Positions 1,341 to 31,327 of a stretch of 32,640 nucleotides of DNA are shown here, in pieces (the stretch's first letter is position 1; every line of letters begins with the position of its first letter). Location: positions 1 through 32,640 of IMG/VR virus record IMGVR_UViG_3300032214_000850, one strand, 5' to 3'. The notes beneath the pieces are model-generated. The model searched no databases. It saw nothing but the letters and a program-made list of their open reading frames with translations, and was not told where the DNA came from. The translations under genes were made by a program, and so were the position numbers. The DNA comes from a virus.

Positions 1341-1372
1341 TTGAAACCAATCCCAATTTATCCGTATATTTG
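1340..1372 (+). promoter_or_regulatory. Bacteroidota-type promoter before 1395 and the sigma gene
   Basis: ATTG at 1340-1343, a 21-nt spacer, then TATATTTG at 1365-1372, 22 nt before the start codon. It probably drives both the gene at 1395 and the sigma factor gene, which follows after a 9-nt gap, so the phage sigma factor would be made by the host polymerase. Confidence 0.7.
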
Positions 1373-1928: not shown

Positions 1929-2729
1929 ATGAAGGACAAAACATTAGGACCACACATTAACCAAGATGAAATCCAACACTACCTTAAAGACATTCGAAAG
2001 ATTAAGGTAATGACACCTGACCGTGAACGTGAGTTAGCAAAACTCATGAAGTCGGACGAACTATCAACATCCCAAAGACGAAAAGTTGAAGAAGAGTTGT
2101 TAACGGGTAATTTACGTTTTGTTATCACCGTAGCAAAACAATACCAAAATCAAGGTTTGGACCTGTCCGATCTTATTGCTGAAGGTAATTTAGGTTTGAT
2201 GAAAGCAATTAAAAACTTTGATTGGAACAAAGATCTACGTTTTATATCTTATGCGGTGTGGTGGGTTAAACAATCAATCATCCAATCTTTGAATGACAAT
2301 TCAAGAACGATTCGTCTACCAGTGAATGTGGTTCAGGATCTTCACAAGGCGAAAAAAGAGGTTGAACAATCGGGTAAAAAACTTGACGATAAGTTTGCTT
2401 CTTTACCATCAATGATCGACTTGGACATGAACATCAATGAAGATGGTGACACGTTGATAGATATGATTGTCAATCGTGATGCTGACGCTCCTGACGCGGC
2501 ATTTGACACTAAAGATTTATTGAAAGATAAGTTGTTATCATTACTACACGTATTGGATGAAAGAGAAAAGCTAATTGTTGAAGACTACTTCGGGTTAACA
2601 GGAACACCTCGTACCCTTGAGGACATCGGATCTGATTTTGGTCTAACCAAAGAACGTGTTCGTCAGATTAAAGAAAAGGCACTTCGTAGACTTAGAAACG
2701 ATTGTACGGAACTTTTTGACTATTTATAG
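1929..2729 (+). CDS. Phage-encoded primary-type sigma-70 factor
   Basis: A 266-residue sigma factor that would direct RNA polymerase to specific promoters. Region 1.2 is at about residues 15-45 (YLKDIRKIKVMTPDRERELA). Region 2 is at 58-130 with the core-binding stretch DLIAEGNLGLMKAI and the melting/-10 segment ISYAVWWVKQSI. Region 3 is much shorter than in host RpoD. Region 4 has its helix-turn-helix at 229-256 (LEDIGSDFGLTKERVRQIKE). It is closer to Bacteroidota RpoD than to T4 gp55, and it lacks the RpoD N-terminal region 1.1. It probably redirects host polymerase to later phage promoters; the TATTTAT motif found before many genes here is a candidate target (inference). Confidence 0.93.
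   Translation: MKDKTLGPHINQDEIQHYLKDIRKIKVMTPDRERELAKLMKSDELSTSQRRKVEEELLTGNLRFVITVAKQYQNQGLDLSDLIAEGNLGLMKAIKNFDWNKDLRFISYAVWWVKQSIIQSLNDNSRTIRLPVNVVQDLHKAKKEVEQSGKKLDDKFASLPSMIDLDMNINEDGDTLIDMIVNRDADAPDAAFDTKDLLKDKLLSLLHVLDEREKLIVEDYFGLTGTPRTLEDIGSDFGLTKERVRQIKEKALRRLRNDCTELFDYL
2721..2728 (+). promoter_or_regulatory. TATTTATA motif at the start of a structured RNA
   Basis: TATTTATA overlaps the stop codon of the sigma gene and sits directly before the structured region 2730-2857. It is the same motif found before 15 start codons in this window, but here no gene follows, so it may start an independent non-coding transcript. Confidence 0.45.
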
Positions 2730-2857
2730 AAGGGTTGAACCGAGATTACCCATACAACTCGGCGGAAGGTGCCTGATGTCACCAAGGTGAAACTCCTCAA
2801 TTCTATCTATATGGTAGAATGAAATTACACTCCCCCACCGGTACCAGTGGGGGTTTT
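2730..2857 (+). ncRNA. Candidate structured non-coding RNA of unknown class
   Basis: About 128 nt between the sigma gene and the next gene, with no open frame but dense complementarity. GGGT 732-735 pairs with ACCC 748-751, and CCGAG 740-744 pairs with CTCGG 758-762; together these interleave as an H-type pseudoknot. CACC 780-783 can pair with GGTG on its left (768-771), while the overlapping TCAC 779-782 can pair with GTGA on its right (787-790), giving two exclusive states. ATTCTATC 800-807 pairs with GGTAGAAT 813-820. A strong terminator ends the unit. It could be an independent phage small RNA or a structured 3' untranslated region of the sigma mRNA. It matches no class I recognise. Confidence 0.55.
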
Positions 2858-2866
2858 ATTGTTTAT
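2832..2866 (+). terminator. Rho-independent terminator
   Basis: CCCCCAC (832-838 of the 2000 block, i.e. 2832-2838) pairs with GTGGGGG (2847-2853) around a loop containing GGTACC, followed by TTTTATTGTTTAT. A strong GC-rich hairpin that closes the sigma transcript and the structured RNA. Confidence 0.85.
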
Positions 2867-2901
2867 AGGGTTTCTATTTTCATATCTTATGGTTATTTTG
2901 A

Positions 2902-2908
2902 TATTTAT
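2902..2908 (+). promoter_or_regulatory. TATTTAT motif before 2924
   Basis: The motif is 15 nt before the start codon and lies just after a strong terminator, so a new transcript must begin between 2867 and 2923. This supports reading the motif as a promoter element. Confidence 0.5.
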
Positions 2909-2923
2909 ACTAAAACAAATTAA

Positions 2924-4111
2924 ATGAATAAGAAATTTTTACCTTGGTTTTTACTTTTCTGTGCGATTGGTTTATCGGGTACCGCGGCTTACTATAGTGT
3001 TGTTGGTCTATCAATTATTTTCTCAGCAGTTGCAATCCCAGTAATCATTATGGGATCGTTCTTAGAGATATCCAAAATAGCAATCGCAACCTATCTTCAC
3101 GATAAGTGGAAAGAAACATACGGTCTTCTAAAGATCTATTTAACTATTGCCCTTGTGACACTATCAGTTTTAACTTCAGTTGGTATCTACGGACTTCTAT
3201 CAACAGGATTCCAACAGAATATTGCGGGTCTTGAGATAAACAATAAGAAGATTGAAAATATTGAAGTTAAAAAAGAAAGATTTAACGAGATTAAGGTTGA
3301 TTATCAAAAAGAAAAAGAAACTCTTGATAAGGACATTACCAACTTAAGAAACGCATTATCTAATAATACGACAACACAATCTATTGATAGAACAACAGGT
3401 CAGGTGATTACACGTGCAAATGGCGGAAATAGAAAGGCATTTGAGAGTCAGTTGAAAATAGCTCAAGACAATAGAGACGTGATCTCCAAAAAGATTGAGT
3501 CTTTGAATGATAGTATCACAAGTTTGGATATGGAAGTTTTGGATTTGGCATCTACTGAAATTGAATCAGGTGAGTTGGGAGCAATCAAATATTTAAGTGA
3601 GATTACTGGTTGGGACATTAAAAAAACTGCCAACTTCTTTATCTTGATTTTGATTTTCGTTTTTGACCCCTTGGCAATTGCGTTGGTTATATCAACAAAC
3701 CAAGCATTCAAACAACGTAATAAACCACCATATGTTATTATTGAGGATGATGAAAAGGAAGAAGAAAATCCTTTTTATGAAGATTGGGAAATACCTGAAA
3801 GTTATTTAACTTATGGTACCCCCCAAGTCACCCCCCAAGTCACCCCCCAAGTCACCCCCCAAGTCGAACCAATTGTGATTGAAAAAATTGTTGAGGTTCC
3901 TGTGGAAGTTATTAGAGAAGTTGAACGAATTGTTGAGGTCCCTGTTGAGAGAGTTGTTGAAATTGAAAGAAGAGTGGAGGTTCCTTATGAAGTTGAAAAA
4001 ATTGTTGAGGTACCTGTAGTATATTATGTGAAAGAAGATGGTACGATTACTGATGAAGAAGGTAATATAATTTCTGAACCAGAAAAAAGAGTATTGAAAT
4101 ATACCAAATAA
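2924..4111 (+). CDS. Multi-pass membrane protein with coiled coil and VEVPVE repeats
   Basis: A 395-residue inner-membrane protein. Three hydrophobic segments lie in the first 95 residues (FLPWFLLFCAIGLSG, then AVAIPVIIMG, then IYLTIALVTLSVLTSVGIYG), a coiled coil spans about 100-225, and a fourth membrane segment is near 238-258 (FILILIFVFDPLAIALVI). The cytoplasmic tail carries four exact TPQV units and then imperfect valine/glutamate repeats (IVEVPVE type). It is the first gene after the terminator and lies 1 nt before the amidase gene, which suggests a role in lysis or membrane reorganisation. It is not a typical small holin, so holin activity is only a guess. Confidence 0.85.
   Translation: MNKKFLPWFLLFCAIGLSGTAAYYSVVGLSIIFSAVAIPVIIMGSFLEISKIAIATYLHDKWKETYGLLKIYLTIALVTLSVLTSVGIYGLLSTGFQQNIAGLEINNKKIENIEVKKERFNEIKVDYQKEKETLDKDITNLRNALSNNTTTQSIDRTTGQVITRANGGNRKAFESQLKIAQDNRDVISKKIESLNDSITSLDMEVLDLASTEIESGELGAIKYLSEITGWDIKKTANFFILILIFVFDPLAIALVISTNQAFKQRNKPPYVIIEDDEKEEENPFYEDWEIPESYLTYGTPQVTPQVTPQVTPQVEPIVIEKIVEVPVEVIREVERIVEVPVERVVEIERRVEVPYEVEKIVEVPVVYYVKEDGTITDEEGNIISEPEKRVLKYTK
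3818..3865 (+). repeat. Tandem repeat, 4 x 12 bp, coding for TPQV units
   Basis: Four perfect copies of ACCCCCCAAGTC in frame inside the membrane-protein gene. Each contains a run of six C, and the codons ACC CCC differ from the ACA/CCA style used around them. Gain or loss of a unit keeps the reading frame, so the length of this tail could vary between genomes. Confidence 0.9.
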
Positions 4112-5647: not shown

Positions 5648-6058
5648 ATGAAAAAAATATTATTCATAACTTCATTGGTCTTAAGTTCTTTGAGTTTCGC
5701 TCAAAAACCAATGTCGGTTGCTGAAGAAATATGTATGCCGGCTGACGTTGCTAAAAAGGTGATGATGGATCTAAGTAGATTGGATTCAACAACTGCGGTA
5801 TTACAACTTGAAAAAAGTGAGAATCAAGAATTAAGAAGAAAGATTGTACTACAAGATAATATTATTGTTGCTTTGGAACAAAAGAACGATATGAGTCAAC
5901 AAATAATTAACAAAACTAACGAAAAGTTTCAGATAGTTGATAACATCAATAAAGACCTGACAACTGAAGTTAAAAGATTGAAAAGAAAAAATACCATTAT
6001 CGAGATTGTTTCAGGTGTTTTGATTTCAGGATTAACTTATGGATTATTAACTAAGTAA
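5648..6058 (+). CDS. Exported coiled-coil protein, possible spanin partner
   Basis: 136 residues. A clear signal peptide (MKKILFITSLVLSSLSFAQK) with probable cleavage after SFA, then a coiled coil at about 45-110 and a C-terminal hydrophobic segment (IIEIVSGVLISGLTYGLL). There is no lipobox, so this is not a classical outer spanin lipoprotein; the C-terminal hydrophobic helix could provide the membrane contact. It starts 2 nt after the inner-spanin-like gene and its stop overlaps the next start by 1 nt. It could alternatively be an unrelated periplasmic protein. Confidence 0.8.
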   Translation: MKKILFITSLVLSSLSFAQKPMSVAEEICMPADVAKKVMMDLSRLDSTTAVLQLEKSENQELRRKIVLQDNIIVALEQKNDMSQQIINKTNEKFQIVDNINKDLTTEVKRLKRKNTIIEIVSGVLISGLTYGLLTK

Positions 6059-6303
6059 TGGCAATAACAGCATCAGACAAGAGAGAAATTGAAACAATAA
6101 TTAGAAAAGAGATCAAAGATTTCTTGGGTTCAAATACTGCAAGACAATTCGAAGATAAATTATTAGATAAAATAGCGAAGGACCTACGTCGAGGAAAATT
6201 AGAGAAAGACGTAAAAGACCTGATAATAAAATCATTCAGAGAGTTCTACACGATCATGTATCAGCAAAGAAGTTTTTGGGAGTCAAAATTTAGAAACGCA
6301 TGA
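6058..6303 (+). CDS. Small conserved phage protein of unknown function
   Basis: 81 residues, highly charged and helical, beginning MAITASDKREIETIIRKEIK and ending FREFYTIMYQQRSFWESKF. I recognise the general form from large phages of Bacteroidota and marine metagenomes, where it is a conserved gene without assigned function. The start overlaps the previous stop by 1 nt and the stop overlaps the next start by 4 nt, so it belongs to a tightly coupled operon leading into probable virion proteins. Confidence 0.82.
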   Translation: MAITASDKREIETIIRKEIKDFLGSNTARQFEDKLLDKIAKDLRRGKLEKDVKDLIIKSFREFYTIMYQQRSFWESKFRNA

Positions 6304-11531: not shown

Positions 11532-12464
11532 ATGAGTCAGGATAATTATTACAACATATTAGGCGTTTCAGAAACAGCAAATCAAGATGAAATAAAAAAG
11601 GCATACAGAAAACTTGCCAAAGATAACCATCCTGATAAAGGAGGTAATGAAGATCAATTTAAAAAGATATCAGTTGCTTATGATGTTTTGGGTGACCCAA
11701 ATAAAAGACAACAATACGATCACCAAAGAAAGAACCCTTTCGCTGGTGGTGGAGGTATGTCTATGGAAGACATGATCAATCAGATGTTTGGTGGTAGAGG
11801 ATTTAATCAAGCACGACCACAAAGTCATACAACAAACTTAAATGTTGAAGTTGGAGTTATTGAGTCATTCTTAGGAAAACGTAAAACCATTAACTACCAA
11901 AGAAAAAAGGAATGTAATACTTGTAATGGTAATGGTGGTGAAAAGAAGACCTGTAATGTGTGTTCAGGAAGTGGAAAGATTGTTAGACAAATGGGTAGTG
12001 GACACTTTATTCAGATGATACAAACACCTTGTGATACTTGTAGGGGGACAGGACAGATACTCATAAGAGCTTGTTATAGTTGTAATGGATCAGGAGATAG
12101 TATTGAAATGAAAACCATCGACATCCAATTACCACACGGTATTGATGACGGACAGTTTATTAGAATGAAGGGAATGGGGGACTTCAAAAATGGGATATTC
12201 GGCGATTTAGTTATCAGAGTACAAATTAAACCAGAGAATAACTTTGAAAAGGCGGGATCACATTTGGTTTACAATGCTTACCTAACATTAGAAGATTTAC
12301 AACAAGGAACTTGTAAAGTACCACATCCACATGGTGAATTGAGTTTAAAACTACCAAATGAAGTAGATACGTCAAAATCCCTTAGAGTTAAGGGTAAAGG
12401 ATTTAATGAAAATGAAATAGGGGATCTGATTGTTAATCAGTTTGTTAAATACAAGAGAAATTAA
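11532..12464 (+). CDS. dnaJ: DnaJ (Hsp40) co-chaperone
   Basis: 310 residues with class-A DnaJ architecture. The J domain is at 1-66 with the HPD motif at 33-35, which stimulates DnaK ATPase. A short glycine/phenylalanine-rich linker follows. Four CxxCxGxG zinc motifs lie at 128-135, 141-148, 167-174 and 181-188, then the substrate-binding beta domain. It is about 60 residues shorter than host DnaJ, mainly in the linker and C-terminus, which lacks most of the dimerisation region. No DnaK or GrpE is present here, so it would use host DnaK. It probably helps fold virion proteins or supports replication. It converges with the small gene at 12461. Confidence 0.95.
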
Positions 12465-25014: not shown

Positions 25015-25197
25015 ATGAGCTTTAATAAAAGGTTTCTCAAAAAAGAAAATATATTAAATAATCTCTCAAACCTTTTTACTTATTTAAACGCCGATGCAAT
25101 TATTTGCACCGACGATTTTTCGCGCAAAGTTTATAGGATGTATAGTGAAGGTTTCAGCAAAGAAGAAATAATAAATGTCATAAATAAAATGAAATGA
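25015..25197 (+). CDS. Small hypothetical protein
   Basis: 60 residues. MSFNKRFLKKENILNNLSNL at the start and a C-terminal helix pair YRMYSEGFSKEEIINVINKM, which resembles a short helix-turn-helix. It starts 11 nt after the previous gene and overlaps the glutamine synthetase start by 4 nt (ATGA), so the two are translationally coupled. It could be a small regulator, but nothing shows a target. Confidence 0.72.
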   Translation: MSFNKRFLKKENILNNLSNLFTYLNADAIICTDDFSRKVYRMYSEGFSKEEIINVINKMK

Positions 25198-26471
25198 AAA
25201 TCAAGTTGGAATACGTGTGGCTCGACGGATATAAACCTGAGCCAAATCTAAGGAGTAAAGTTAAGATAGTTAATGCTGACACAATAGGTGCCTCAATCGA
25301 CAGCTTCCCAATGTGGAATTTTGACGGGTCATCAACAAATCAAGCCAATACTGGTAATTCAGATCGTTTATTAAAACCAGTTAGATGGTATATGTCAGAT
25401 CAATACCCATTAGAGGACAACACCGTTTATGTTTTATGTGAGGTATTGAATCCTGATGGAACACCACACGAATCTAATAAAAGATCTGGTATTGGTACAG
25501 GATTTGAAGATCTTTGGTTTGGTTTTGAACAGGAATATTTTATTCGCGAAGAAGTTAATGGGAACATTTTGGGTCACAAAAGAAATATCCTCAAAGGACA
25601 AGGTGAATACTACTGTGGTGTAGGACACAATGTTGTTGGACGTAAGTTTGTTGATGAGCACTTGAATATGTGTTTGAACTATGGTATCAACATTACAGGT
25701 ATCAATGCTGAGGTGGCATTAGGACAGTGGGAATATCAAGTGTTTTCACAAGGTAAATTAAAAGGTGGGGATGACCTTTGGATGACGAGATACTTTTTAT
25801 TCAAGATAGCTGAAAAATATGGTTATCATATTGAATTACATCCTAAACCAATCACACACGGAGAGTGGAATGGATCAGGACTTCATACAAACTTTTCAAC
25901 GGACACGATGAGAATTGATGGGAATGAAGAATATTTTATGGCATTATTCAATGCATTTGAGTCAAGACACGAAGACCATATCAAAGCTTACGGATCAAAC
26001 AATCATTTACGATTAACTGGTGAATACGAGACTCAAGCAATTGATAAGTTTAGTTGGGGTGTATCTGATCGTGGAGCATCAATCAGAGTTCCTCAGGACA
26101 CCGCAAAAGAATGGAAAGGTTATGTTGAAGACCGTAGACCAGGTTCAAATGCCGATCCGTATAAAATAATTCGTGAGATTGTTAATTCGCTATACGTTGC
26201 TCAACTTCTTTATGATACAAAAACTATGATCAATAAAGACGTTGATATGAATGGTCTTAGTGAAAAGTACGGAACAATGACTAACGATGAATTATTAAAG
26301 GAATATCGAGATGATTATGATTATGTGTTAGATGATCAAATTATGGAATCTAAAGCTAATATAAAACCAGGAACACAACCTGAAAATATTAATACAAGTA
26401 ATACGGGCACAATACCCGAAGCATTAAAAAACGCATTAATGAACGCTAAAAATTATTCAACCAATGGATAA
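25194..26471 (+). CDS. Type II glutamine synthetase with C-terminal extension
   Basis: 425 residues. It makes glutamine from glutamate, ammonia and ATP. The beta-grasp N-terminus has MWNFDGSST; the catalytic domain shows WFGFEQEYF, EYYCGVGHN, GINAEVALGQWEYQVF, HPKPITHGEWNGSGLHTNFS, DRGASIRVP and EDRRPGSNADPY, all signature blocks of eukaryote-type GSII, with metal- and ATP-binding residues in place. The core ends near residue 350; about 70 further residues (helical, then low in complexity) are not part of usual GSII. It is coupled to the small gene before it and overlaps the DUF3310 gene by 8 nt. The role in infection is unknown: nitrogen supply for nucleotides, or a specialised amide-forming reaction. 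Confidence 0.95.
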   Translation: MKIKLEYVWLDGYKPEPNLRSKVKIVNADTIGASIDSFPMWNFDGSSTNQANTGNSDRLLKPVRWYMSDQYPLEDNTVYVLCEVLNPDGTPHESNKRSGIGTGFEDLWFGFEQEYFIREEVNGNILGHKRNILKGQGEYYCGVGHNVVGRKFVDEHLNMCLNYGINITGINAEVALGQWEYQVFSQGKLKGGDDLWMTRYFLFKIAEKYGYHIELHPKPITHGEWNGSGLHTNFSTDTMRIDGNEEYFMALFNAFESRHEDHIKAYGSNNHLRLTGEYETQAIDKFSWGVSDRGASIRVPQDTAKEWKGYVEDRRPGSNADPYKIIREIVNSLYVAQLLYDTKTMINKDVDMNGLSEKYGTMTNDELLKEYRDDYDYVLDDQIMESKANIKPGTQPENINTSNTGTIPEALKNALMNAKNYSTNG

Positions 26472-31204: not shown

Positions 31205-31207
31205 TTT

Positions 31208-31267
31208 CTTTGTTCTATAAAAACAAAGTGGTGGAGTAGATGACAGATTCAATGTCGGACCAAATTA
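31208..31267 (+). ncRNA. Structured 3' region before a terminator
   Basis: No open frame. CTTTGTT (31208-31214) pairs with AACAAAG (31222-31228). TGGT (31229-31232) pairs with ACCA (31259-31262) around GACA (31242-31245) pairing with TGTC (31253-31256). It directly precedes a strong terminator and looks like a structured 3' untranslated region or the end of a small RNA. No promoter-like motif is seen before it. Confidence 0.35.
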
Positions 31268-31294
31268 AGGTGAGAGTTTTCTCACCTTTTTTTA
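31268..31294 (+). terminator. Rho-independent terminator
   Basis: AGGTGAGA at 31268-31275 pairs with TCTCACCT at 31280-31287 around GTTT, followed by TTTTTTATTT. It closes the lipoprotein transcript. Confidence 0.85.
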
Positions 31295-31303
31295 TTTCTT
31301 AGA

Positions 31304-31310
31304 TATTTAT
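31304..31310 (+). promoter_or_regulatory. TATTTAT motif before 31328
   Basis: The motif lies 17 nt before the start codon and directly after a strong terminator, so a promoter must be present here. Confidence 0.55.
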
Positions 31311-31327
31311 TATTAAAAAATTGTTTT

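Follow-up and report, generated by a model that had tools for sequence, protein, structure and literature searches.

What occupies the short stretch directly behind a phage sigma factor gene, and what might it do there? The question is raised by IMG/VR virus record IMGVR_UViG_3300032214_000850, analysed over its 32,640 bases (hereafter, the window), in which a sigma-70-like factor gene (1929-2729, plus strand; Pfam r1.2/r2/r4) is followed, after a gap of 194 nt, by the gene of a membrane/coiled-coil protein, F0 (2924-4111, plus strand; preceded by TATTTAT at 2902). A first-pass annotation had proposed a candidate new structured RNA in this gap, fitting either a phage small RNA or a switch-like, ligand-responsive 3' region, and the features it listed are present as described: the sigma gene, a promoter-like motif at its end, GGGT/ACCC interleaved with CCGAG/CTCGG, a hairpin and a terminator. 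The sole content of the gap is a conserved structured RNA, RNA-A, the core of which (2732-2826, plus strand) is defined by two alignments and a covariance model match. Its GGGT begins two bases past the sigma stop codon and opens the series GGGTTGAACCGAGATTACCC...ACTCGG, then three short hairpins, then a strong terminator. As for open frames, only unconserved ORFs of 26-44 aa occur in 2730-2826, and a conserved reading frame is excluded because homologues differ by 1-nt lengths inside RNA-A. Judging from promoter type and protein families, the host of the window virus is probably a member of Bacteroidota. Elsewhere in the window, 25194-26471 encodes a glutamine synthetase with both Pfam domains, an unusual phage cargo, and the genes at 11532, 20209, 20516, 29660 and 29949 are phage-encoded DnaJ, thioredoxin, glutaredoxin, DUF192 and NUDIX proteins.

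The conserved fold, all on the plus strand, begins with a 5' H-type pseudoknot, in which stem S1 pairs GGGT (2732-2735) with ACCC (2748-2751) and stem S2 pairs CCGAG (2740-2744) with CTCGG (2758-2762). Hairpin P3 follows (GGTG 2768-2771/CACC 2780-2783), then P4 (AGG 2785-2787/CCT 2795-2797, loop TGAAACT) and P5 (ATTCTA(T)/(G)TAGAAT, 2800-2820). The folding energy is unremarkable (z -1.1, with 26 of 200 shuffles equally good), and the minimum-energy fold of the window RNA alone is another, nested fold. Since the energy is ordinary and the single-sequence fold differs from the conserved one, the case for the structure rests on comparison of homologues. These were obtained in several ways. Fetching by sigma protein gave 80 viral loci, several dozen of which carry RNA-A, often immediately behind the stop of the sigma gene. 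When 2.9 million viral contigs were scanned with a pattern, 92 stretches were recovered (L111 and L138, apparent chance matches, were left out of the family); a further scan keyed to the 3' portion contributed just two real new variants, L173 and L176. The family comprises about 90 IMG/VR stretches, all of them metagenomic contigs. Its covariance model matches the window at 2729-2828 in a single copy with 116 bits (E 2e-30), the window itself being in the training set.

The covariance check on homologues proposed by the first-pass annotation yielded covarying pairs and compensatory changes in three hairpins. Among 54 distinct sequences, standard pairs fill 96.8% of cells and double changes occur at 10 pairs; the covariation score is 0.304, whereas shuffles give 0.154+-0.008 and slid controls no more than 0.12. 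A simplified, R-scape-like phylogeny-aware test, in which substitutions were re-placed on the tree, was applied to 5050 column pairs, and the top three are all proposed pairs, lying in P5 (E 0.008), P3 (0.067) and P5 (0.083); the P3 pair 45-56 and the closing pair of S1 are also within the top eight. With testing confined to the 25 proposed pairs, the values drop about 200-fold; since this alignment also supplied the structure, the unrestricted E values are the honest ones. Covariation is strongest in P5, with double changes at four inner pairs, while P3 alternates between GGTG/CACC, GAGA/TCTC and GGGA/TCCC, and the outer pair of P4 between A-U, G-U and G-C, P4 being swapped for different stems in the divergent loci L082, L098 and L122. 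The two exclusive pairings suggested for the GGTG-CACC-GGTG segment can be drawn in the window but did not survive this comparison: the first GGTG and its CACC change jointly while the second GGTG stays fixed, so the alternative pairing is impossible in most relatives. Two other helices were tried and rejected, namely TTACC/GGTGA, which is broken in L022, L040, L082 and L173 although S1 is kept, and an RNAalifold closing helix GGTT/AAAC, which is broken in divergent members. On this comparative evidence, RNA-A is a real, conserved structured non-coding RNA family.

The pseudoknot presents a different kind of evidence. Both S1 and S2 are invariant in 54 of 54 sequences, and covariation is confined to the closing pair of S1 (A-U in 28, U-A in 18, other in 8), the stem cores being invariant in sequence. 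As the first search pattern forced this invariance, the scans were repeated with parts of the stems free. No S2 variants with three of five pairs free were found across the 2.9-million-contig scan, and leaving the 3' strand of S1 free gave no new loci among the viral contigs; the invariance is therefore real within the collection. The pseudoknot likely forms, a conclusion based on this invariance and on the single covarying closing pair, which is absent from the window (an A.A mismatch, 2731/2752). Altogether, a stretch of about 35 nt is almost invariant, unpaired bases included, and two types can be told apart by the P3 loop, CGA and CCTGA, the window belonging to the latter.

As to novelty and range, the proposed Rfam check (release 15, 4227 models) gave no match at the gathering score and chance-level matches only at E up to 10, a tRNA/tmRNA search found none, and INPHARED isolated phages gave no match. 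Across 84,980 genomes of bacteria and archaea, the first pattern had no match; a relaxed pattern gave 11 matches, apparently chance and in coding DNA. The covariance model likewise found none across 395 Bacteroidota genomes, a set without a positive control. Among 40 whole records searched, RNA-A occurs in 11, once each, and is absent from 29, with relatives of 270-300 kb lacking it.

The RNA is bounded by a terminator and, in many relatives, by a promoter. The intrinsic terminator of the window (2832-2857, plus strand; CCCCCACCGGTACCAGTGGGGG + TTTT) has a stem of -13 kcal/mol and is terminator-like on the opposite strand too; relatives keep a terminator, the sequence of which varies freely and independently of RNA-A. 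Away from sigma genes, a TAnnTTTG element, the host-type promoter of Bacteroidota (PMC7366714), stands 19-31 nt upstream of RNA-A in 17 of 35 distinct upstream sequences; two others (L106, L149) carry a TATTTAT-type motif, and the remainder mostly lie directly behind the stop codon of another gene. A TAnnTTTG element of the window itself, TATATTTG (1365-1372, plus strand), lies 30 nt ahead of gene 1395, itself located before sigma and RNA-A. Such motifs also stand directly before the window genes 864, 1395, 12682, 19079 and 30496, and the genes behind them, which include a D12 methyltransferase and a DUF932 protein, are probably early genes.

The own promoter-like motif of the first-pass annotation fared less clearly. 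The candidate phage (late-type) element TATTTATA (2721-2728, plus strand) belongs to a motif that does recur: TATTTAT is found 11-38 nt before 10 other window genes (2924, 7289, 13559, 15760, 16747, 17019, 22997, 24224, 28661 and 31328), with 11 matches in upstream segments against 2.0+-1.5 expected. It forms a second promoter-like class in this phage, possibly read by its own sigma factor, for which the T4 late promoter TATAAATA offers a comparison. In the window, however, the same bases encode the C-terminus of sigma (Y-L-stop), so a role of TATTTATA as RNA-A's own promoter, with a start near 2733, is plausible but uncertain. TATTTAT stands at the sigma end in 14 of 18 distinct RNA-A carriers versus 8 of 31 non-carriers, a suggestive difference, though one confounded by phylogeny.

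The genomic setting is equally informative. In 77 of 80 loci, sigma as the fixed left border and F0 as the fixed right border enclose an interval of 97-4392 nt; empty sites span roughly 100 nt, and the one in L014 holds a terminator alone. Downstream of RNA-A lies F0, an opposite-strand gene F4, or others, depending on the locus. As judged from these arrangements, RNA-A is an optional accessory cargo of a variable sigma-F0 hotspot. Further cargo comprises F9, assigned by sequence to the C5 DNA methyltransferases; F6, a zinc-ribbon protein whose Lar match falls below the curated cut-off; F7, with a weak MuF_C match; and F4. Of these, F9, F6 and F4 are typical neighbours in accessory or counter-defence regions. 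The hotspot also houses RNA-B and RNA-C, two more small-RNA-like units that are unrelated to RNA-A and are both preceded by a TAnnTTTG promoter; Rfam and tRNA searches of their loci gave no match. RNA-B (L012 5600-5775, L023 7480-7650, L208-L218) is about 130 nt long and structured-looking, and the 3' strand of its long closing helix overlaps the end of F4 in antisense. RNA-C (L013 about 6010-6190, L064 about 5960-6165, L121, L157) combines promoter and terminator with ACGACGAAAGATAT...TCGGGTTTAAATTCCTCGAATCGGACC, and has F7 downstream of it in each of the loci checked for this, L013, L064 and L121; in L135 and L141 a shortened form stands directly before RNA-A. The intergenic stretch 31205-31327 of the window holds a terminator and TCGGACC-AAATTAAGGTGAGAG, like the 3' end of RNA-C (fold z -1.8), and is possibly another small RNA or a remnant.

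We consider RNA-A to be a stand-alone structured small RNA of Bacteroidota phages, about 100-130 nt long, which would act in trans and whose invariant pseudoknot would bind a protein in a decoy- or antitoxin-like manner; the probability of this reading as a whole is roughly 0.5. Its first part, a stand-alone small RNA gene, is well supported and would give rise to a discrete transcript: the phage small RNA anticipated by the first-pass annotation is borne out by some 90 viral stretches, by a non-coding fold with compensatory changes, by the terminator and by own promoters in relatives, the window offering a candidate promoter only. In many relatives, RNA-A would be transcribed from its own host-type promoter; alternatively, it may form the 3' end of the preceding gene's transcript or, in the window, start from TATTTATA in the sigma end. 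The genes on either side change from locus to locus, which leaves no constant target for regulation in cis, and the RNA would act in trans rather than on the adjoining genes. The invariant pseudoknot may be the part read by a protein, with the hairpins as a scaffold that need only keep its shape. Most likely, RNA-A would serve in counter-defence or nuclease neutralisation, as a decoy or antitoxin-like ligand by which a nuclease, or some other protein of defence or takeover, is held inactive while infection proceeds; the likeliest partners would be the RelE-like F4 or a host defence protein. A precedent for a phage RNA neutralising a nuclease is the pseudo-ToxI of phage PhiTE (PMC3475682).

The first alternative to be weighed narrows this partner to F4 and regards both as a phage-borne two-part module in which RNA-A, as the RNA antitoxin, keeps the nuclease inactive; we hold it as a tentative and on the whole improbable reading. 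F4 (131-151 aa, opposite strand) lies tail-to-tail with 31 of 48 CGA-loop RNA-As and faces RNA-B in nearly all RNA-B loci, even where the wider neighbourhood differs, and it accompanies RNA-A without adjacent sigma or F0 in L082, L090, L098, L125 and L153. Its structure model (pLDDT 77) has no significant Foldseek match, and the seven best rows of a VIA-align comparison are RelE-family toxins (RelE/HigB/YoeB/ParE), followed by T4 RegB, with Z at most 4.7; the model hints coherently but weakly at a RelE-type nuclease fold. One F4 member has a DUF4258 match (E 0.001, below cut-off). Searches of F4 against NCBIfam and PADLOC produced nothing coherent, and the Pfam Abi families gave no match. Against the module, none of the 18 CCTGA-loop RNA-As, the type found in the window, has F4 beside it, several large RNA-A-bearing records lack F4, the two elements are on opposite strands with neither a shared operon nor tandem repeats, and the linkage could be inherited synteny. 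Moreover, L077 keeps F4 beside a promoter and terminator remnant with neither RNA-A nor RNA-B, an arrangement that speaks against strict addiction.

In several F4 genes TATTTAT stands 7-36 nt ahead of the start, and the N-terminus of F4 resembles that of a packaged protein, so that production of RNA-A and of F4 could be separated in time. Such N-termini, with many short helices ending in (L/I)xE, are found in the window proteins 14980, 15760, 28661, 31328 and 32449 and in F4 and F7 of relatives; by analogy with T4-type capsid-targeting/prohead-protease sites, which they resemble, these proteins may be packaged and injected. A broader arrangement can be imagined along these lines, in which RNA-A, RNA-B and RNA-C would be counter-defence or antitoxin RNAs made from early host-type promoters and time-staggered with late, possibly capsid-packaged RelE-like nucleases. 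This arrangement, not described before, is speculative and we consider it doubtful.

Should RNA-A instead be a 3' end element of the sigma mRNA, protecting, processing or attenuating that transcript, no free small RNA need exist. The window and 22 other distinct upstream contexts, in which it directly follows the sigma stop, would suit such a role, as would other copies directly behind F6, F7 and F13. Nevertheless, many phages hold RNA-A elsewhere, behind its own promoter or without an adjacent sigma gene, and it is absent from many phages with an 80-87% identical sigma, which makes a cis element unlikely. An antisense small RNA pairing with one phage or host RNA would explain the fixed sequence of the 35-nt stretch, unpaired bases included; but the invariant bases lie mostly within stems, the best duplex with window gene starts is no better than that of shuffled RNA (p 0.08), and comparison with one Bacteroidota 16S/23S showed no significant match in antisense, leaving this option rather improbable. 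The switch-like, ligand-responsive region of the first-pass annotation can be set aside as very improbable, for although a compact pseudoknotted fold followed by a terminator would suit a riboswitch, a riboswitch would be an aptamer tied, together with its expression platform, to the 5' UTR of a single gene or pathway, which RNA-A is not: the downstream gene is unconserved and often on the opposite strand, the terminator varies without matching changes in RNA-A, the exclusive pairing is unconserved and Rfam holds no match.

Three further resemblances were rejected. The match of CGA-type RNA-A to Bacteroidota 16S (CGGCGGAATGAGACA, 14/15) is at chance level (p 0.06 against 16S; window p 0.4) and that of RNA-B falls in a non-conserved part, so that ribosomal mimicry was dismissed; the hammerhead-like CTGATG...GAAA and cobalamin-like GGTGNNAATCC elements seen by eye are unconserved in relatives and have no Rfam match.

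RNA-A belongs to large Bacteroidota phages, the RNA biology of which is little explored, and phage non-coding RNAs with a conserved tertiary-type fold are, to our knowledge, few. With its covariance model, empty sites and recurrent neighbours, the family lends itself to a direct test of the partner and of the blocked defence. Amongst known systems, Rfam families share with RNA-A a structured RNA and a terminator, while none matches it at the gathering score. Bacteroides GibS is likewise a stand-alone small RNA gene of Bacteroidota behind a TAnnTTTG promoter, but it is reported as relatively unfolded and host-encoded (PMC7366714), whereas RNA-A is encoded by phages, is highly structured and gave no similarity in host genomes. 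In the AbiF-type phage RNA/protein systems, a non-coding RNA reportedly also lies beside a defence-like phage protein (PMC12373285); F4 differs in its opposite orientation and has no PADLOC or Pfam Abi match. Pseudo-ToxI and the type III antitoxins (PMC3475682, PMC5086642), at a level other than sequence, share with RNA-A a non-coding, phage-borne character, an H-type pseudoknot and a terminator. Type III systems consist of a short-repeat antitoxin array in a same-strand operon of RNA, terminator and toxin gene (PMC5086642); RNA-A consists of one unit, some 95 nt long and carrying three additional hairpins, compared with the 36-nt repeats of ToxI, no such short repeats occur in window 2600-2960, and F0 (window) or opposite-strand F4 (others) lies downstream in place of a ToxN-type gene in an operon. 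As both repeats and operon order fail, RNA-A is not filed as a type III antitoxin. Like ToxI, it plausibly keeps a nuclease inactive, and if it does neutralise one, RNA-based counter-defence would extend beyond pseudo-ToxI.
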